From a virus: DNA of 21,012 nucleotides. The notes under the pieces are model-generated. The model searched no databases, was not told the DNA's origin, and saw only the letters and a list, made by a program, of their open reading frames with translations. A program made the position numbers and the translations under genes. The stretch lies in the IMG/VR virus record IMGVR_UViG_3300012003_000027, positions 1-21,012 of that record; one strand, given 5' to 3'. Below, piece after piece: positions 5,194 to 15,808 of this stretch; within the stretch, counting starts at the first letter, position 1; the number at the start of each line of letters is the position of its first letter.

Positions 5194-6411
5194 TCACCAG
5201 TAGCCCAGCTGGCGGATGGATCCCTGCCGGCTGGTCCCGCCACCGGCCCGGAACGTCGACCCGACCATGCCGTCGTCACGCTGGAACTGGCGCAACGGTG
5301 GTGGGACTACTACGCCACCGCCTGGCCCTTGGATGACCCACAGGACACTGCTCACAAGGCCTGTGACGTAGCGGTCGTAGAGCATCGCCCCGAGGAGGAT
5401 GATCCCGGTGGTCTGGCCGGCATCCATGTGCGCGATGTCGAAGACGTAGGAATACCCGGGTGCGGGGTACGGCAATGACAACTGCGCCATCGTTGCCGGG
5501 ACGACGCCCTGGTCTACCGCGAACAGCCGACCCTCGAGAGACCCACCACCCAGGTCCATCTCCGCGTAGGAGATCAGGTGCTGGCCATCGCCCAGGGCGA
5601 CAAACGGGCCAAAGAGGTTGACGTACTCACCCCCGACGCCGGCTCCCGAGGCAGGAACCGACCCATCTGCGGCGTAGTAGTTGACCGGGTAAACACCGGA
5701 GTATGACTCGGCGATCAACCCCGCCCCGCCCGCGATGAACGGCGAACCTGCCGCGCCGGGATAGATCCCACTGGTGGGGATGCCAGGCATAGCTGAGGCG
5801 CCGTCGAAGGAGCAGGACGAGCCGCCCAGGGATACGGTGAAGTTGAGCCGTCGCGGCCAGTTGTCGAACACTGCGAACTGCGTGTGGTCGGCAGGGTTCA
5901 TATAGATGCCAGTCGGTCCCGAGACCCCCGACACTTCGCTGAGGAGCGCGCCAGTGATCGACGAGAACACCTGCAGTACCGTGCCCACCAAGACGATCCG
6001 GTTCGTTGCCGGGTCGTAGAAGTGGGCTGTCACACCCGCGTCGTAACGGGGCGCGAGGCTCGTGGCCATCGGCAATGCTGACCCTGCGGACGGGGTTGGA
6101 CCAGTGGCGTCGATCAGATACGTCGCGTAGGTCGCGGGCGAGTAGGCAACCCTGGTGATGAGGACCGCGTGCATCCCCGTCGCCACAAGGTATGGCGTCG
6201 GGCTGTCACTGGCACCCATGACGATGTCCGTCGAGCCCAGCACTGTCAGGTCTGCTGCGAGGTGCCAGAGCCGGATGCTTTCGAGCGTGTCTTGAACCCT
6301 GGAGGCGACCAAGTACGTGCCGTCGGACAGGATCGCGGTGGCCGGTGGACCCCACGGGTTCGGCCCCGACCCTGAGAGCAGGACCGACGAGTGCAGCAGC
6401 GTGTAGGTCAC
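5194..6411 (-). CDS. Tail-tip / receptor-binding-type minor tail protein
   Basis: A 405-residue protein with GTG start overlapping the upstream stop (GTGA at 6408-6411). The body is rich in short Gly- and Ser-containing beta strands with repeated blade-like units (for example TAILSDGTYLVASR, HAVLITRVAYS, NRIVLVGTVLQVFSS, HLISYAEMDLGG), suggesting a beta-propeller or similar fold. The C terminus has a Gly/Pro hinge (GPGGGVVVPPP) and a short basic tail ending QLGYW. It is the last tail gene before the lysis module, the usual place for host-recognition proteins, so receptor binding is inferred. No enzymatic motif was seen. Alternative: a structural baseplate component. Confidence 0.75.
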   Translation of the reverse strand: MTYTLLHSSVLLSGSGPNPWGPPATAILSDGTYLVASRVQDTLESIRLWHLAADLTVLGSTDIVMGASDSPTPYLVATGMHAVLITRVAYSPATYATYLIDATGPTPSAGSALPMATSLAPRYDAGVTAHFYDPATNRIVLVGTVLQVFSSITGALLSEVSGVSGPTGIYMNPADHTQFAVFDNWPRRLNFTVSLGGSSCSFDGASAMPGIPTSGIYPGAAGSPFIAGGAGLIAESYSGVYPVNYYAADGSVPASGAGVGGEYVNLFGPFVALGDGQHLISYAEMDLGGGSLEGRLFAVDQGVVPATMAQLSLPYPAPGYSYVFDIAHMDAGQTTGIILLGAMLYDRYVTGLVSSVLWVIQGPGGGVVVPPPLRQFQRDDGMVGSTFRAGGGTSRQGSIRQLGYW

Positions 6412-8810
6412 TGGATCGGTGCCGGGTAGACCCTGCCCGAGATGAACGTCGAGACCGGTGACCACTCCGCGACCCACACCCACGGTGGGAGCTGCGAGGT
6501 GTACTCCATCCCGCCGCCGTCCTTGAACTTCCCGGTCAGCGGTGCACCCGCGTCTTCGGTGCGGGGCCAGTACCCGGCAGCCTGCCCGGGCCCGCCGAAT
6601 GCCTGGATGATCCCGAGAGCTGCCAGCGCGTTCGCTTGGGCTTCGTCCTTGTTGAACGGGTCCGTGCCGTTCAACGGGTCACCGACCAGGTGGACCAGGT
6701 GTGCAGGGGTCACGGGGGCGCCGAAGAACGCGAGGCAGAACTTCGCTGCCGGCGACTGGGTGGTGATGTCGATCTTGGAGATCCGACCAACCTGCGAGAC
6801 CGGGATCCTGATGACAGTCCAAAGCCCCCCGTGGATGGCATGGCGGGGGATCTTCCCTGCGTCGGACTCACCGTCGAACGGGACGGTGATGTCCTGTTCC
6901 ATACGGGACCGTTTGTTGACCGCTCCAGGGCTCCGTGCGGGGTCCGCTGCGGCGTCTCTGGCGTTCGCGCGGATGGACGCCAACGTCATCGCGTCCCGCG
7001 CGTGCTCGTCGAGGGTGACGGTCACGGAGTTGCCAGAGGGGGAAGCCTTGACGTCGGCGACGTGCAGCAGCGGGTTGCCGCCACGGAACCCGTTGATGCG
7101 GATGTTCTGGCCCTCGTCGATCAGCCACTTCGACCCGCCGTGCGGGTCTGTGGTGAACGTCGCGGACCCGGTCAGTCCGGGGCTCTTGTCGCGGGCCAGC
7201 TCGGCCTTCGCGGACCTGGTCGCCTCAGCTTTGGTGCTGGTGCCGAAGTCCTCGTTCGGGCGGTCGAACCGCATGATGGTGGCGTCGTAGGTCGGGTTCG
7301 GGCCGGTGATCGCACCACTGGCGGAGTACAGGTGCGGTTCGACCCGGGGGTCGATCGCCAGGGGTCGACGGTACGCCCCGGTCAGGTCGCCGCCACCGGA
7401 TCCGACGGCGAACGTCGCAGCCCACGTCTGCCCGCCGATGATGCCGTCCTCGAGCAGGCCGTAGTCGTGCTGGATCCGCAAGCAGATCGCCGCATCGGAG
7501 GTGTTGTAGACCCCGTCGACGACCACGTCGGGGGTCAGGTTGAGCTCGTTGACCCTTCTCTGCCAGGTGGAGACGCCGGTACCGGAGTCGGTGTCTGCGT
7601 CGGTGGTGCCGATGGTGATGATCGCGGACGGGTTGGTGAACGGGAACGGGGGTGCGTCGTCGTCGAGGAACTTCGGGTAGCACATCCCCGACCAGGCGTA
7701 ACCATCCGGGCCGATGCCGTGCCCGAAGATCGCGTTGACACTGGACAAGAGGTCCTCTGAGAGGGTGATCTCGATGCCGGGCGCACCAGCTGTGACGGTG
7801 TGGTGCACAGTGGTGCGGTCTTTGAGGCGCACCTGGTAGCCGCGGGTCGACCCGGGGATCTTCGCGACGGTCCACTGGTTGGATCCGTCGTCCTTCCACG
7901 CACCGCCGAGCAGTGCCTGGGCGTAGTCGATGGGTGAGTCGTCCGCGGACCCGCGGTACCTTCGCGGGATCCCCGTCAGGGTGTTGTTGGGTATCCCGAA
8001 CCGGCGCGACACGACACTGTTGAAGGTGTTGCGGATCAGAGTCCCGATGTCGGTCGGGTTCAGGATCGTCGGGACCTGGATGCCCACGTGGTCGGCCTGG
8101 AACAAGGCACCTTCGGCCTGCCAGACGTTGCTGATGTCATCCTCGGAGCTGCCAGTCTCATCGGAGATGAAGTGGCCGGCGAACCGTTTGTGCCTGGTCG
8201 TGCCGTCGACGTCGAGGAGGAAGATTTCCACTGGGGCGCCGGGCTTGAGCCAGGACAGGTCCCCGGCGCCGATGACGTCGTACTGGGTGAGCTGGGGGAA
8301 CGTGATCTGCGCGGACGTGTCGCCGAACGGTTCAGCTGTCGACCATTCGTCCACCAGGGTGGGGGTATTGCGGAAGTACGTGACATCACGACCGGACACG
8401 ACCACGTGCAGGACACCGACGTCGGCCTCGACGATCGTCCACGCGTCTGAGACCCGTGCGTGCCCGTCCGCGTCGATGGTGGGCGCGGGCATGATGTGCG
8501 ACTGGCGGCGCAGCATCCGCTCAGTGACCAGCGGCCCACCGGTACCGCCCGGGCCGGGCCCGCCAGTACCGTCGGGTGCGACGGCGAGCGGCGGGTTGAC
8601 CACGAGGTCTGTGTCGGTCATGACGATGTCGAGCAGGGTTTTCTGTGACGTGTCCGCGGTCCACGGCAACAGGTGGATCAGGTCGAGGTTCAGGTCCGCA
8701 GCCAACGCCACATCGGAGCCGGTCGCCCCTGTGAGCGGGCGAGTCTGGGTCAGTGACGCGGCAAGAGCAACATCATCAGCACCAGCCGCAGCCAGGTCGA
8801 CGGCCACCAC
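6408..8810 (-). CDS. Large minor tail protein with internal peptidoglycan-binding-like domain
   Basis: An 800-residue tail protein, probably part of the baseplate or tail tip. Residues 1-100 include a duplicated ADDVALAASL / SDVALAADL unit and a Gly/Pro linker. About 110-360 is beta-rich with the pattern of tail hub proteins (LKPGAPVEIFLLDV, KRFAGHFISD). Residues 412-468 read as a peptidoglycan-binding (PG_binding_1) unit: TWQRRVNEL, VVVDGVYNTSDAAICLRIQ, then GLLEDGIIGGQTWAA. The region 520-640 resumes the hub-like pattern (LIDEGQNIRINGF, LHVADVKASPSGNSVTVTLDEHA), and the C-terminal part has a beta domain. No catalytic triad for wall cleavage was found. The start is GTG 8810 or the GTG next to it; there is no clear ribosome site, so coupling to the upstream gene is likely. 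Confidence 0.85.
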   Translation of the reverse strand: MVAVDLAAAGADDVALAASLTQTRPLTGATGSDVALAADLNLDLIHLLPWTADTSQKTLLDIVMTDTDLVVNPPLAVAPDGTGGPGPGGTGGPLVTERMLRRQSHIMPAPTIDADGHARVSDAWTIVEADVGVLHVVVSGRDVTYFRNTPTLVDEWSTAEPFGDTSAQITFPQLTQYDVIGAGDLSWLKPGAPVEIFLLDVDGTTRHKRFAGHFISDETGSSEDDISNVWQAEGALFQADHVGIQVPTILNPTDIGTLIRNTFNSVVSRRFGIPNNTLTGIPRRYRGSADDSPIDYAQALLGGAWKDDGSNQWTVAKIPGSTRGYQVRLKDRTTVHHTVTAGAPGIEITLSEDLLSSVNAIFGHGIGPDGYAWSGMCYPKFLDDDAPPFPFTNPSAIITIGTTDADTDSGTGVSTWQRRVNELNLTPDVVVDGVYNTSDAAICLRIQHDYGLLEDGIIGGQTWAATFAVGSGGGDLTGAYRRPLAIDPRVEPHLYSASGAITGPNPTYDATIMRFDRPNEDFGTSTKAEATRSAKAELARDKSPGLTGSATFTTDPHGGSKWLIDEGQNIRINGFRGGNPLLHVADVKASPSGNSVTVTLDEHARDAMTLASIRANARDAAADPARSPGAVNKRSRMEQDITVPFDGESDAGKIPRHAIHGGLWTVIRIPVSQVGRISKIDITTQSPAAKFCLAFFGAPVTPAHLVHLVGDPLNGTDPFNKDEAQANALAALGIIQAFGGPGQAAGYWPRTEDAGAPLTGKFKDGGGMEYTSQLPPWVWVAEWSPVSTFISGRVYPAPIQ

Positions 8811-9728: not shown

Positions 9729-10172
9729 TCAGACGGTCGTGTTGGCTGGTGTGGGCTGGACGGGGATCTTGGCGATGAACGTGGACTGGCCTGCCATCGC
9801 CTGGAACTTGTCTAGCGGGAAACTTGAGTCGGAGCGCGTGGCACGCCACACGGACCGGGAGTTGCCGATGGTGACCTCGAGCAGCCACGACCACACCTCG
9901 AGCGCGTCGATGAGCGCCTGGCGGCGGGTGTTGATGATCGCCTGGGTTGAGCCCTCGATGATCACGACGAAGCCGTGCATGCCCCCTTCGAGGACTGCGG
10001 CGACGAGGAACTCGCCGTCGGCGTGGGGGGAGTGGACGGTGATGCGTCGCCAGGTGCGGTCCGGGGTGGAGACCTCGACAAGCTTGTACCCGCCGGCTTC
10101 GGTCAGGTCCAGGACCACTGCGGAGGCGTTGGACAGGATGCGGACTGTCGCAGCGAGGTCGGGGGTGGTCAT
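9729..10172 (-). CDS. Small tail protein following the tape measure gene
   Basis: A 147-residue protein. The ATG overlaps the tape measure stop (ATGA at 10169-10172), so it is translationally coupled. It is alpha/beta in appearance, with VVLDLTEAGGYKLVEV and EFLVAAVLEGGMHGFVVIIEG as strands and a helix RQALIDALEVWSWLLEV. No catalytic or membrane motif was seen. In siphoviruses the gene right after the tape measure normally encodes the distal tail protein, but this product is shorter than classical distal tail proteins and lacks a recognised galectin-like domain. It is therefore called only a tail-associated protein. Confidence 0.7.
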   Translation of the reverse strand: MTTPDLAATVRILSNASAVVLDLTEAGGYKLVEVSTPDRTWRRITVHSPHADGEFLVAAVLEGGMHGFVVIIEGSTQAIINTRRQALIDALEVWSWLLEVTIGNSRSVWRATRSDSSFPLDKFQAMAGQSTFIAKIPVQPTPANTTV

Positions 10173-13100
10173 GTGGGGCGCCTTCCGCCGAGCCGGGCCA
10201 ACCTGGTCTGTTCGTAGGTCTTGCGGGCGTCGGCGGTGTCACGGAACGACGCGTGCTCGATGTGCAGCGGGAACTCCGACGTGCGGGTCTCGTTGATCGG
10301 TACCTTGACGACCTGCACCGCGCCCCCACCCCACGGCGATGCCACCCGCGACCCCAGGGGCCCACCGTCGGCATACCGGGGCAGGCGACGCTTGTTGACC
10401 GCGTCCATGAAGTCGGTGCCGTAGAAGTCGTGCGCGGCAACGGACTGGATGTACTCGCGCGGGTTGACCCGAGCGACCATGTTGTCGACCTTCGGACCCA
10501 GGAACATGCCCGGGACCACGCCACCCTCAGAGCCACCCCACATGGCCTTGGGGGGTGGCACGACCACGTTGTCCGCGGCCTTGCCGGGGTACCCCTCCAG
10601 ACCCTTCCCGAACGACGCCACCACGTTGACCGTGGCCGTCGCGGTGGACCCGTCGATGCCACGCAACGCATACAGCACGCCGTCGATCACCGGGACCGCA
10701 CGCGAGGCATCCACGACGATCTCGCCGCGGACCCCCGCGTTGAGTCGGGTGGCCAGCGTCGACACCGCCGTGTCGGATGGTTTGAGGCCGTTGGCGATGT
10801 CGATGCCGAACCCGGTCGACGCGTCCGAGATCCGACGAATGTCCGCGACCGAGACTTTCAGCTTCTTCGCCAGCTGCTCGATGGTCAGCTTGCCCTTGTC
10901 GACCAGGGTCGCCTGCTGGATCTGCATCGCGATCGGGAGGTCTTTGACTGCCTGGTCGGTGGCGGACCCGACCGCGATCGCCGTCAGGCGGGCCTGAGCC
11001 ACCACGATCAGGTTCAGCCGGGCCAGCTGGGTTTCGGAGTCGTTGACCATCTTGATCATCGCCCCGGAGTGGTCCGACAGGATCGTGGCCAGGATCGGGC
11101 CGGCCTGTTTGGGGCCCTGCTCGAGCAGCCGTGCCACGACGTGGTAATCCAGGCCTTTCGCGGTGGCTGTGGTGATGTCCTTGGAGAACTGGGCAGCTTG
11201 GGCGATGGTCGCCTTGTACGTGTTCTTCAGGCCTGCCGTGCCGGTCTGGGCTTTGGCGGCGACGACGTCCTGCTGTGCGGCGGCGACGTCCTTCTGAGCC
11301 TTGGTCAGAGCTTGGGCGTCGGCGACAGATCGCTTCTTCTTCGCACCGACCCGCGCCTCGACGTCGGACAGGTTCTGCTTGGACGACGCGAGCTTGTCGT
11401 TGGCCGCGGTGAGCTTGTCAGCAGCAGCGGTGGGGTCGTACTGGCCCAGCACGTCAGTGTTGGACGTGAACGCCTTGGACGCCTTGTCCTGGGCGTCTTT
11501 GAGCGCGGTAGCGAACGCGGCCATGGCGTCGATGTCCTGGCCGATGTTCGCGGCCATGGCGCCAGTGGACAGCCCGGTCTGCTTTTCCAGGTCGCGCGTG
11601 TAGGCGACCAGCTTCAGCATTTCGTCGCCGGCGTCCTTGGGTGCCTTGGACAGGTCGACGTTCTGGCTCTTGGCGAGCTTGATCAGCGCATCGTCGGTGA
11701 GGCCGGTGGTGGTGCGCAGCCCGGCGAGGTTGGTGGTGACGTTCGCTGCGCGTGCCTTGAGCACACCGAGCGCGTCAGCTGCGGCGGCGCCGTCGTTGGC
11801 GACCTTCGCGAGCTCGTCGTTGCCGAACAGCAGCGAGAACCCACCCTTGATCACACCCAGAGTGCCCGTGTACTGCTTGCCGACCTCGATGGCGGCGTTC
11901 GCGGTCTTGGTCAGCTCGGCGACCCCGGCCTGCATCTTCGCCGGATCCAGGACGTCCGTTGACGTGCCCATGCCCTCGAACGTGGTTTTGGCCTTGTTCG
12001 CGGCGTCGTCCATCATCATGAACCCGCGCGCAGCCAGGAACAGGGCCGCACCGATCCCCAGGGTGGCGACGGTCTGCACGGTCAGCATGGACGCGGCCAG
12101 TGCCCGCAATGCCACGGTGCCGCCCTCAGCGGCTGTGATCAGCCCGACCAGACCCAACACGACGGGGGTCAGGATCATCCGGTTGAACGCGATGGTCACC
12201 GCGCCCAGGGATGGCAGCAGCGACGCACCGTAGACGATGGCCAACGCCAGGACGATGTCCTTGTGCTCGGCGATGAACCCGGTCGCGGCCGCCAACGCCC
12301 GAGCGATCGCGGTGATCCCGACGACGATCGCGCCGCCGGCGACCTCCAGCAGGGCCTTCGCGGCGGGTAGGGCCACCTGGGCGATGGTCTTCAGTGCAGC
12401 CACGACGTTCACCCCGACGGCCCACAACGCGGTGAACAGCGGGTTCAGCGCCCGCACCCCAGCTTGTAGGTCGGGCATTGCGCTCTTGGACAGGTTCATC
12501 ATGGACTGCATCAGGGTGGTCAGCACCGGCAGGAGTTTGAGACCGACCTCGATCGTTCCCGCCTTGATCGCGTTGACCACGAGGGTCCACTGCGCGGACG
12601 TGGCCTTCATCTGCTCCGAGAGGGCGGCCGCGGTCGCCCCAGCACCCGCGTGAGCTGCGGACCACTGCGCCACGACGTCGGTGTACAGCTTGCCCTGGTC
12701 TGAGGTCAGCGCCAGCGCGCCCCGCAGCCCACGGATGTCGACGAACAGCTCAGACATGGTCGAGACGTTGCCGCCGGTGACCCGCTGCAGGTCGGCCATG
12801 ACCCCGGTCAGGCCCTTGGTCTTCAGCGCACTGACCCCGGACTCGTACCCCAGCGACTTGAACACCCCAGCCAGGGCGTCACTGGGCTGGATCATCTCGG
12901 CCAGGACCCGGTTCAGTGAGGTGAACGACTCAGCGGGCACGATGCCCGCCCTGGTCATCGTGGCGATCGCCTGACCGACGGCGTCGATGGACACCCCAGC
13001 GGCGGCCGCAGTACCAACGACCGTGCCGATGCCCTGGCCAAGGTCGCTGAAGGTCAGGACACCAAGGTTGACGGTCTGGAACAGGGTATCCGAGACGTCC

Positions 13101-13822
13101 TTCGCGGACGCAGCAGACAGACCGTAGGCGTTCAGAACCCCGGAGATGGCCTGCGCAGCGGTGGCCGTGGTCGACAGGCCCGCAGTGGCGGCCTTCGCGG
13201 ACGCCTCCAGGACCTGCAAACCTTGCGCGCCCTGGAACCCCGAGCTCGCGATGTCGTACAAGCCCTGGCTGAGGTTGTTCGCATCCTGCGGCAACGTCTT
13301 AGACAGGTCCAGGACCTTCTGAGACAACCCACTCAGCGCCTGCTCGCTCATCCCTGTGATCGAGTTGACGTTGCGCATGTTTGTCTCGAACTGCGCGGAC
13401 AGCTGGATGCCGGTGCCGAACGCGGTGAGTAGCTGTCGCCCCAGCATGAAAGCCCCAGCCGCAGCCAACCCCAGGCCAGCAGCGACCCGCAACCCACCCA
13501 CCGAGTAGTACTCGGACAGCCGCAGGGCGATCCTGGCGTGCCGGTCGGCCTCGTTAGCGGCCTTCCCTGTCGCGATCCCCACGGCCTGCATGCCAGCGGC
13601 TGTGGTCCGCGACGACGTTTGGGTCTGCCGCGCTGTCTTCTGTGCGGTCGCCCCGAGCCGCGCGGTCGCCTGCTCGGTCTCACCCATCGACTTGGTTGCG
13701 CCACGCTGACCGGTCTCGACGTCTTTAGCGAACCCTCGGATCGACGTCCTGGCCTCGTTGAGACGTTTGTTCAGGTCGGCGTTCGACCCGACGATCTTGA
13801 CGCTGATGGTGCGAACGCCCAT
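10169..13822 (-). CDS. Tail tape measure protein (TP901-type)
   Basis: A 1217-residue protein that sets tail length and is ejected with the DNA. Residues 1-100 are helical and Gln/Thr-rich. About 145-380 match the TP901/PhageMin_Tail core: FETNMRNVNSITGMS, LYDIASSGFQGAQGLQVLEA, LNAYGLSAASAKDVSDTLF, and ELFVDIRGLRGALAL. Hydrophobic segments are present at about 112-135 and densely at 460-605, as expected for membrane insertion during injection. A charged coiled coil follows (TAANDKLASSKQNLSDVEA and after). The C terminus has the Gly-rich YADGGPLG type tail. No lytic domain was found. By the usual rule of about 0.15 nm per residue the tail would be near 180 nm. ATG 13822 has GGAGGA upstream and lies three bases after the previous stop. 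Confidence 0.95.
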   Translation of the reverse strand: MGVRTISVKIVGSNADLNKRLNEARTSIRGFAKDVETGQRGATKSMGETEQATARLGATAQKTARQTQTSSRTTAAGMQAVGIATGKAANEADRHARIALRLSEYYSVGGLRVAAGLGLAAAGAFMLGRQLLTAFGTGIQLSAQFETNMRNVNSITGMSEQALSGLSQKVLDLSKTLPQDANNLSQGLYDIASSGFQGAQGLQVLEASAKAATAGLSTTATAAQAISGVLNAYGLSAASAKDVSDTLFQTVNLGVLTFSDLGQGIGTVVGTAAAAGVSIDAVGQAIATMTRAGIVPAESFTSLNRVLAEMIQPSDALAGVFKSLGYESGVSALKTKGLTGVMADLQRVTGGNVSTMSELFVDIRGLRGALALTSDQGKLYTDVVAQWSAAHAGAGATAAALSEQMKATSAQWTLVVNAIKAGTIEVGLKLLPVLTTLMQSMMNLSKSAMPDLQAGVRALNPLFTALWAVGVNVVAALKTIAQVALPAAKALLEVAGGAIVVGITAIARALAAATGFIAEHKDIVLALAIVYGASLLPSLGAVTIAFNRMILTPVVLGLVGLITAAEGGTVALRALAASMLTVQTVATLGIGAALFLAARGFMMMDDAANKAKTTFEGMGTSTDVLDPAKMQAGVAELTKTANAAIEVGKQYTGTLGVIKGGFSLLFGNDELAKVANDGAAAADALGVLKARAANVTTNLAGLRTTTGLTDDALIKLAKSQNVDLSKAPKDAGDEMLKLVAYTRDLEKQTGLSTGAMAANIGQDIDAMAAFATALKDAQDKASKAFTSNTDVLGQYDPTAAADKLTAANDKLASSKQNLSDVEARVGAKKKRSVADAQALTKAQKDVAAAQQDVVAAKAQTGTAGLKNTYKATIAQAAQFSKDITTATAKGLDYHVVARLLEQGPKQAGPILATILSDHSGAMIKMVNDSETQLARLNLIVVAQARLTAIAVGSATDQAVKDLPIAMQIQQATLVDKGKLTIEQLAKKLKVSVADIRRISDASTGFGIDIANGLKPSDTAVSTLATRLNAGVRGEIVVDASRAVPVIDGVLYALRGIDGSTATATVNVVASFGKGLEGYPGKAADNVVVPPPKAMWGGSEGGVVPGMFLGPKVDNMVARVNPREYIQSVAAHDFYGTDFMDAVNKRRLPRYADGGPLGSRVASPWGGGAVQVVKVPINETRTSEFPLHIEHASFRDTADARKTYEQTRLARLGGRRPT

Positions 13823-13825
13823 GTG

Positions 13826-14461
13826 TCAGTCCTCCTGCTCGATGACAGCGACCAGGTGGTGGTGGTACCGGTGAGACTGGTCGGGCGGGATGGTCGCCTC
13901 GACCTGGGCTTTGAGCTCGCACTGCACGCACGGACGAGACACGACGGTGAACGCACCCACGGCGCCCATCAGGTCGGCAGGGACACCACAACCGGGGCAC
14001 CGGTCCGCGGCACGCACCTCGTAGGCAAGGGCGAGGTCTTGGTCTCGTTCCGACCAGGACAGGAACTGGGTGTGCGGGATCCCATGAGCGGCGCAGTACC
14101 CGACCTCAGCGGCCAGACGTGGGTCCCTGTTGAGGCGCCTGCGTGCCCATTCGATGCTGGTGATGTTCAGGGCCACACACCGGCGGAACAGGTCCTCACC
14201 AGCGTCAATGGGCCATTCGTTCCACCAGTCCGTGGCTGTGGGCACGTCGACCCGGTCCCGTGGTTGGTCTTCCTCGTCAGACCAGGAGGTGACCGACGCT
14301 GCGATCAGCGCCGGCGCGAACGTCGCCTCCAACCACAGGTCCCGACCCTTCACTGGAGGGTGGGCCTCGACGAGCTCGTCAAAGGCGACGCGACCTATCG
14401 AGGCGAGGCGGACCGTGATGGTCCCGTCGTCGCCCTGGTAGGTCGCCCCGTCTTTGCGCAC
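13826..14461 (-). CDS. Second tail assembly chaperone-like protein with C-terminal zinc ribbon
   Basis: A 211-residue protein with GTG start. Residues 15-105 resemble the end of the upstream gene: RLASIGRVAFDELVEAHP against RSLGRKAFFELLAAHP, and TFAPALIAAS against TFPEALVQTA, then a Trp-containing helix. The C-terminal part has the actinophage pattern QFLSWSERDQDLALAYE followed by CPGC (Cys155, 158) and CVQC (Cys178, 181), a probable zinc ribbon. The position just before the tape measure gene is that of tail assembly chaperones. It lies in the same frame as the upstream gene, separated only by TGA and one codon (TGA CCG GTG), so it may be made by reinitiation or as a readthrough fusion. There is no sign of the classical -1 frameshift. 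Confidence 0.75.
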   Translation of the reverse strand: MRKDGATYQGDDGTITVRLASIGRVAFDELVEAHPPVKGRDLWLEATFAPALIAASVTSWSDEEDQPRDRVDVPTATDWWNEWPIDAGEDLFRRCVALNITSIEWARRRLNRDPRLAAEVGYCAAHGIPHTQFLSWSERDQDLALAYEVRAADRCPGCGVPADLMGAVGAFTVVSRPCVQCELKAQVEATIPPDQSHRYHHHLVAVIEQED

Positions 14462-14464
14462 CGG

Positions 14465-15094
14465 TCAGGCCTTGCGTCGCTTCGGGTCGGCCACGGGTGC
14501 TTGGGACTGGGCGAGCTGGGCGTGGACGAACAGGGCGTTGATCTCGACGTCGTTCCAGTTCTGCCCGTGGAAGACGGCCTCGATGTCAGCATCGGACAGG
14601 ACCGGGTCAACACATGCGGTCTGGACAAGCGCTTCGGGGAACGTGTCCAGGTTCCAAGGAGCGCGGGACCCCTCACCAACAGCGGCGGCGGCCTCGTGGT
14701 CCTCGTCACGGGCCGGGTGTGCGGCGAGGAGCTCGAAGAACGCTTTGCGGCCCAGGGACCGGAACGTGAACCAGGTGGTCGCGGCGTCCATGGCGTCCAG
14801 CGCTGCGGTCGTGGCGGCTTCGAGTGGTGCGAGTTCGGCGGCGTCTGCTTCGTCAACACTGGCGCGGATGATCTGCGGGTCGATGACGTCGGTGGCCTCA
14901 GCTGTGGCGCGGGCTTCAGCGAGGCGGCGGGGTCGGGATGCGTCGAGGCGTTCTTTCGCGGCGGTCAGGTCACGCTCGGCGTCGTCGACGGCTTCGACGG
15001 TGGTGTCGTCCAGGTAGATGCCGACAGTGACGCGGCGGGGAAGTTTCCCGAGCCGGTCTTGCGGGGGCTTGGGCTGTGTCTTCGGTGCGGTCAT
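14465..15094 (-). CDS. Tail assembly chaperone-like protein
   Basis: A 209-residue protein. Residues 30-105 form a charged helical, probably coiled-coil region (DLTAAKERLDASRPRRL and beyond). Residues 109-195 carry the chaperone-like pattern: FRSLGRKAFFELLAAHP, WNLDTFPEALVQTACVDPV, DADIEAVF and NDVEINALFVHAQLAQ. Such proteins bind the tape measure and tail tube subunits during assembly. ATG 15094 has AAGGAG nine bases upstream. It ends in UGA followed by C, a weak termination context, with the next gene in the same frame. Codon use and third-position GC agree with the other late genes. Confidence 0.8.
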   Translation of the reverse strand: MTAPKTQPKPPQDRLGKLPRRVTVGIYLDDTTVEAVDDAERDLTAAKERLDASRPRRLAEARATAEATDVIDPQIIRASVDEADAAELAPLEAATTAALDAMDAATTWFTFRSLGRKAFFELLAAHPARDEDHEAAAAVGEGSRAPWNLDTFPEALVQTACVDPVLSDADIEAVFHGQNWNDVEINALFVHAQLAQSQAPVADPKRRKA

Positions 15095-15139
15095 GCGCTG
15101 GGGCTCCTTGTGGTTATGGGCTGCCGGTCAGCGACATGG

Positions 15140-15316: not shown

Positions 15317-15808
15317 TTACGCGACGACCGCGTTCTTCTCCTGCGCCCCAGTGATGGCGAGCTCGGCGACGTACCGGGCCGGCTCGGCATCCAGGGAGAA
15401 GGACCGGTTCTTGGAACCGATACGGATCGGCCAGACCTCGACCTTGGCCGCGGCGGTGAACACGTTGGCCACAGGGTTGATGACGATGAACCCGGTGGCC
15501 TGCTCCGCCAGGGCGGTGTAGATGTTCTTGCGGGCCAGGTCGTCACCGGTCGCGCCGGTGCCGTCATCCTCGATGAGGGTGAGCTTGGCGTCGCCGAACT
15601 GCTGCGGGCCGTCGATCTGCACTTCCTGCTTGTACTTCAGCAGGGCCTGGTTGATCCTGTTGAGCTGGGTCTCGAAGCCCTCCATGGAGGCGAGGCCTGG
15701 ACCGAGGTCCGTGCCGGCAGTGATCTCGGCTGCGGTGGGTGCGGCGATGGCCACGATGGTGGGGACGAAGCGGACACCTGTGGTGCCGCGACGGAAGAAC
15801 ATGCCCAT
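15317..15808 (-). CDS. Major tail tube protein
   Basis: A 163-residue protein that forms the non-contractile tail tube. It is of typical beta-rich tail tube type: MGMFFRRGTTGVRFVP at the N terminus, then PTAAEITAGTDLGPGLASM, a helix-loop MEGFETQLNRIN, LTLIEDDGTGATGDDLARK, and FIVINPVANVFTAAAKVEVWPIRI towards the end. AEITAGTDL and the late VEVWPIRIG are recurrent features of actinophage tail tube proteins. It starts at ATG 15808, one base after the previous stop, and ends TAA. Hairpins follow it, and an intergenic control region precedes its small upstream partner, consistent with high expression. Confidence 0.88.
   Translation of the reverse strand: MGMFFRRGTTGVRFVPTIVAIAAPTAAEITAGTDLGPGLASMEGFETQLNRINQALLKYKQEVQIDGPQQFGDAKLTLIEDDGTGATGDDLARKNIYTALAEQATGFIVINPVANVFTAAAKVEVWPIRIGSKNRSFSLDAEPARYVAELAITGAQEKNAVVA

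Follow-up and report, generated by a model that had tools for sequence, protein, structure and literature searches.

As judged from their sequences, two adjacent genes on the minus strand of the window (the whole stretch of DNA analyzed, 21,012 nt, positions 1 to 21,012 of virus record IMGVR_UViG_3300012003_000027) encode homologous tail-assembly chaperones, the second of which carries a zinc ribbon. It is very likely that the pair is a chaperone module in which the short form, G, and the long form, GT, come from two separate neighboring genes and not from recoding. ORF1 would provide G, and ORF2 would provide GT, its second G core being joined to a T zinc-ribbon domain in one reading frame. 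Because ORF2 holds both parts in a single frame, ordinary translation would be sufficient to produce GT and recoding would be unneeded. The features of the locus are given below, including the strand, which was absent from the first-pass annotation.

15317-15808, minus strand: tail tube (major tail) protein gene, upstream neighbor of the pair (PF25595, E 4.9e-25; phrog_2491)
15104-15109, minus strand: Shine-Dalgarno sequence AAGGAG of ORF1 (duplex -7.5 kcal/mol)
14465-15094, minus strand: ORF1, 209 aa, ATG start, stop TGA at 14467-14465; putative G (short tail-assembly chaperone)
14501-14779, minus strand: G core of ORF1 (residues 106-198), preceded by a helical N-terminal region
14462-14467, minus strand: ORF1 stop TGA and a CCG codon (14464-14462), followed by the GTG of ORF2
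13826-14461, minus strand: ORF2, 211 aa, GTG start; putative GT (long chaperone) encoded in one frame
14386-14450, minus strand: predicted hairpin just inside ORF2 (uncertain)
14165-14422, minus strand: second G core, in ORF2 (residues 14-99)
13883-14137, minus strand: T zinc-ribbon domain of ORF2 (residues 109-193; T profile E 8e-17)
10169-13822, minus strand: tape measure protein gene, downstream neighbor of the pair (phrog_1533, E 8.9e-37; PF10145, E 1e-29)

The gene order is tube-ORF1-ORF2-tape measure. The interval between the tube and tape measure genes is the usual site of tail-assembly chaperones, and it is the one that the pair occupies. Elsewhere in the tail region, an 800-residue protein (6408-8810, minus strand) is matched in its middle part by endolysin profiles (residues 398-521; phrog_1493, E 4e-8) and is perhaps a tail protein carrying a cell-wall-degrading domain. 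The joint between 9233-8814 and the start at 8810 consists of TAA, one codon and GTG, in the same frame.

Two amino acid blocks singled out by the first-pass annotation, F-x-EL-x-x-AHP (FFELLAAHP in ORF1, FDELVEAHP in ORF2) and TF-x-x-AL (TFPEAL and TFAPAL, respectively), are indeed present in both products. Comparing the profiles of the ORF1 and ORF2 families yielded a probability of 75.6 and an E-value of 2.4e-5 over 45 columns, a similarity indicating that the common chaperone core is not due to chance. The canonical G profile matches ORF1 with E-values ranging from 2.2e-9 (window) to 5.8e-14 (relatives); in the relatives, the match includes the helical N-terminal region besides the core. 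The T profile matches ORF2 and not ORF1, and the four cysteines of the zinc ribbon are common to ORF2 and Streptomyces phage ZL12. ORF1 is a short form homologous to G of the relatives with a G/GT layout, and ORF2 a long form in which a G part is followed by the T extension.

A GT profile was built from 14 canonical contigs, with GT decoded across the putative slip site; profile E-values were computed for a nominal 40,000 sequences. ORF2 of the window aligns with positions 89-281 of the 312 in this profile, unbroken (E 3.5e-30), and the match crosses the point where the frame shifts in the relatives. In the aligned slip-site region, relative L033 reads AVELNNRGLDVPFQRARLRADPGFFMEMGFC and ORF2 of the window reads CVALNITSIEWARRRLNRDPRLAAEVGYC. 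These data bear out the zinc ribbon of the second ORF and support the earlier view that the pair takes the place of the frameshift product, ORF2 already being GT in one ORF. They modify that view in one respect: the ribbon would not have been added to a duplicate but would be the ancestral T domain, apparently reached by -1 frameshifting in relatives.

Two families of PHROGs v4 listed as "unknown function", phrog_19248 and phrog_19456, match ORF1 (phrog_19248, E 1.9e-6) and the N and C termini of ORF2. Both also match the decoded GT of contig L041 (E 6e-34 and 3e-37) and that of L033. They are likely to represent the two halves, G and T, of frameshift-type chaperones, which supplies a likely function for the two families. 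Pfam chaperone models did not reach their cut-offs with ORF1 or ORF2, the AlphaFold models of the two ORFs (mean pLDDT 38 and 55) were too poor for use, and searching solved structures by sequence gave no meaningful match to the pair.

Few recoding events are as widely conserved among tailed phages as the G/GT frameshift. Distant viral contigs were gathered by searches with the zinc-ribbon part and classed by the position of the G core relative to T; each contig was counted once and a cut-off contig (L075) was left out. The window and eight related contigs holding the same pair make up a clade with seven distinct sequences, that of the window included. Outside this clade, 47 contigs possess just one G core, T lying in the -1 frame; near the G stop, 40 of them present a strict X_XXY_YYZ heptamer (GGGAAAA, CCCTTTC, CCCAAAA, AAACCCT or GGGAAAC). 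The 47 contigs appear to have the canonical G/GT layout and would be decoded by frameshifting. In L036, L037, L061, L062, L067, L070 and L076 the strict heptamer is replaced, at or near its usual position, by CCCTATC, CCCTCCG, CCCTCCC or CCCTACC, which might serve as non-standard sites of -1 slippage. A joined chaperone gene is annotated in the more distant Brevibacterium phage LuckyBarnes.

In the window and each of its eight relatives, the G core occurs twice, and T shares an ORF with the second core; the short gene and the fused long gene are distinct. The frameshift-type arrangement, with T in another frame and a slippery site, is not found as a feature of the clade, whose members have no slippery site in common. 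Differences at the three codon positions number 522/376/1004 in ORF1 and 451/407/1015 in ORF2, the third-position-rich variation expected of two protein-coding genes. Neither ORF had a tblastn match among INPHARED phages at E 1e-3; raising the limit to E 10 gave weak leads only (LuckyBarnes, ZL12 and an unannotated record), of which LuckyBarnes and ZL12 were then examined as frameshift-type examples. Two scans of bacterial genome contigs found no relatives of the pair. No second copy of T or ORF1 was found in three larger clade records (49.6, 49.2 and 36.3 kb), which may be fragments; ORF1 is split across the ends of the 49.2 kb record.

As noted in the first-pass annotation, ORF1 and ORF2 of the window are in one frame, split by TGA and one codon before a GTG (TGA CCG GTG; stop and codon at 14467-14462), with a C following the UGA. 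Readthrough of this leaky UGA-C was proposed to fuse the two ORFs into a protein replacing the frameshift product, 420 residues in length according to the annotation, although the product would have 422. Aside from the window, L003 (TAA CCA GTG) and L004 (TGA ACTTCA GTG) also have the two ORFs in one frame, as readthrough would require; however, the stop contexts in these contigs are UAA-C and UGA-A. In L017, L018 and L012 (TGA CCGGA GTG; UGA-C) and in L005/L006 (TGA, 11 nt, ATG; UGA-U), accounting for four of the seven distinct sequences, ORF2 is out of reach of readthrough because it lies in the -1 frame relative to ORF1. The joints of the window and L017 are a two-base indel apart, and the frame is thereby changed. 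Thus, the same frame and the UGA-C context, for which relatives were to be checked, are not kept: ORFs in other frames and a UAA stop both occur, and the spacing varies as well. A conserved in-frame stop with a constant downstream frame, the mark of a readthrough gene, is not seen in the clade. Furthermore, the fusion would have the composition G-G-T, because ORF2 has its own G core, and the joint between ORF2 and the tape measure gene (13820-13828, minus strand; TGA-CAC-ATG, same frame) shows identical geometry. Among 25 neighboring minus-strand gene pairs in the window, counted on provisional gene calls, 8 share a frame, 22 have TGA as the upstream stop and 10 have TGA-C. The shared frame and UGA-C of ORF1 and ORF2 are what chance gives and are coincidental. 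Since the stop, the following base and the frame vary among relatives, readthrough is rejected; we find it scarcely credible.

It is also very improbable that, in part of the clade, ORF1 and ORF2 are still linked by a -1 frameshift toward the end of ORF1. The -1 frame occupied by ORF2 in L017, L018, L012 and L005 is open for 127-265 nt upstream of its start, but such long open frames are unsurprising where DNA is G+C-rich, and no strict heptamer is common to these four. A CCCCCCC at -172 in L017 and L018 falls within the open stretch only in L018, and a -1 shift would yield only a 35-39 residue tail in the window, L003 and L004. An unlikely alternative of a different kind has ORF2 as the sole working chaperone gene and ORF1 in some unrelated role. 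The GT profile does fit ORF1 less well than ORF2 (E 2e-9 versus 3.5e-30), partly through smaller coverage. Against this, the match of ORF1 to G spans the core and extends, in relatives, to the helical region; the gene occupies the G position, its initiation signal is the stronger one and is conserved, and no contig of the clade lacks ORF1.

The production of G and GT from two genes is consistent with the initiation signals. The ORF1 start combines AAGGAG with ATG, identical in all five members scored. ORF2 starts with GTG in six of the seven distinct sequences, 3-6 nt after the ORF1 stop, and its Shine-Dalgarno sequence is weak in six of seven (-2.8 to -5.0, with a random median of -3.6). The exception is ORF2 of L005/L006, which has an ATG with a Shine-Dalgarno value of -7.1 at a spacing of 2, so weak initiation is not universal. 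The strong signal of ORF1 as opposed to the weak one of ORF2 suggests that ORF2 is likely to be translated at a low level by coupled reinitiation after the ORF1 stop. Starting at the GTG, offered initially as the simpler alternative, is a better reading than readthrough. The excess of G over GT would probably be fixed at initiation, GT being perhaps limited by weak coupled reinitiation. If the pair acts as gpG/gpGT do in lambda, the G product of ORF1 would coat the tape measure protein, and the tail tube protein would be recruited by the T part of ORF2.

The predicted hairpin lies about 10 nt into ORF2, and in four of six members no other 80-nt stretch of ORF1 and ORF2 is as stable. Measured against synonymous-codon shuffles, it gives z-scores of -3.0 in the window and -4.1 in L003; in L004 and L005 it is not better than the shuffles. 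The covariation term is unfavorable, with only two pairs changing on both sides. The structure is a possible brake on ORF2 initiation. We tentatively suggest that a siphovirus-like lineage might have swapped frameshifting for a hard-wired GT gene, the ratio of the two forms being set by weak reinitiation at the GTG and perhaps dampened by the hairpin.

The ORF1 and ORF2 sequences each form one clade in a tree built on the 80-column core. Constraining the two together is not rejected (AU p 0.29), and the tree does not place the duplication. On a simple reading, tandem duplication would have given the two G cores; the second could also have arrived by recombination. The end of ORF1 in L003 and L005 (DPKRHRG) is similar in length and finish to the canonical G end of L033 (VPFSERG), and CCC is found at -19 from the stop in both, within CCCGAAG/A in L003 and L005 versus CCCTTTC in L033. 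From this short, by-eye comparison, to be given little weight, CCCGAAG/A near the ORF1 stop may be a decayed slippery site.

The finding of a frameshift-free lineage amid apparently frameshifting relatives offers a way to probe the purpose of the frameshift. Should a weakly initiated second gene suffice, it is the ratio of the two forms that matters and not recoding. Annotators should not assume that a frameshift has been missed wherever two adjacent chaperone genes lack a slippery site. The authors of PRFect list 342 SEA-PHAGES genomes that have a pair of chaperone genes but lack a joined one, which they presume to be missing; some of these genomes could resemble the two-gene module of the window.

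In phage lambda, the tape measure protein is bound by G, which is in excess, and connected to the tube protein by GT (PMC5009743). The window clade shares with the frameshift G/GT systems (lambda gpG/gpGT, the ZL12 type and the 47 contigs) the position between tube and tape measure genes and the G core and, with the ZL12 type and the 47 contigs, the T zinc ribbon, ORF2 aligning with decoded GT through the slip site. It differs from them in having two G cores instead of one, with T in the same ORF as the second, and no common slippery site. Like the G and T halves of canonical relatives, the pair is matched by phrog_19248 and phrog_19456; however, the PHROGs keep the halves as separate families, whereas the second G core and T of the window form one ORF. 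According to the available description of their chaperones, some T4-like phages have separate short and fused long genes in place of frameshifting (Vladimirov, Gautam and Davidson 2022, in PMC10885494). As far as that description goes, the two-gene solution is already known, and the likeness is one of architecture only: one gene for the short form and another, longer one made of the short form plus the downstream part. The window differs in that it is not T4-like, with tail genes matching those of frameshift-type relatives of ZL12, and in that the long gene lies immediately after the short one. Here, the two-gene solution is found in a siphovirus-like lineage whose relatives have the frameshift layout.
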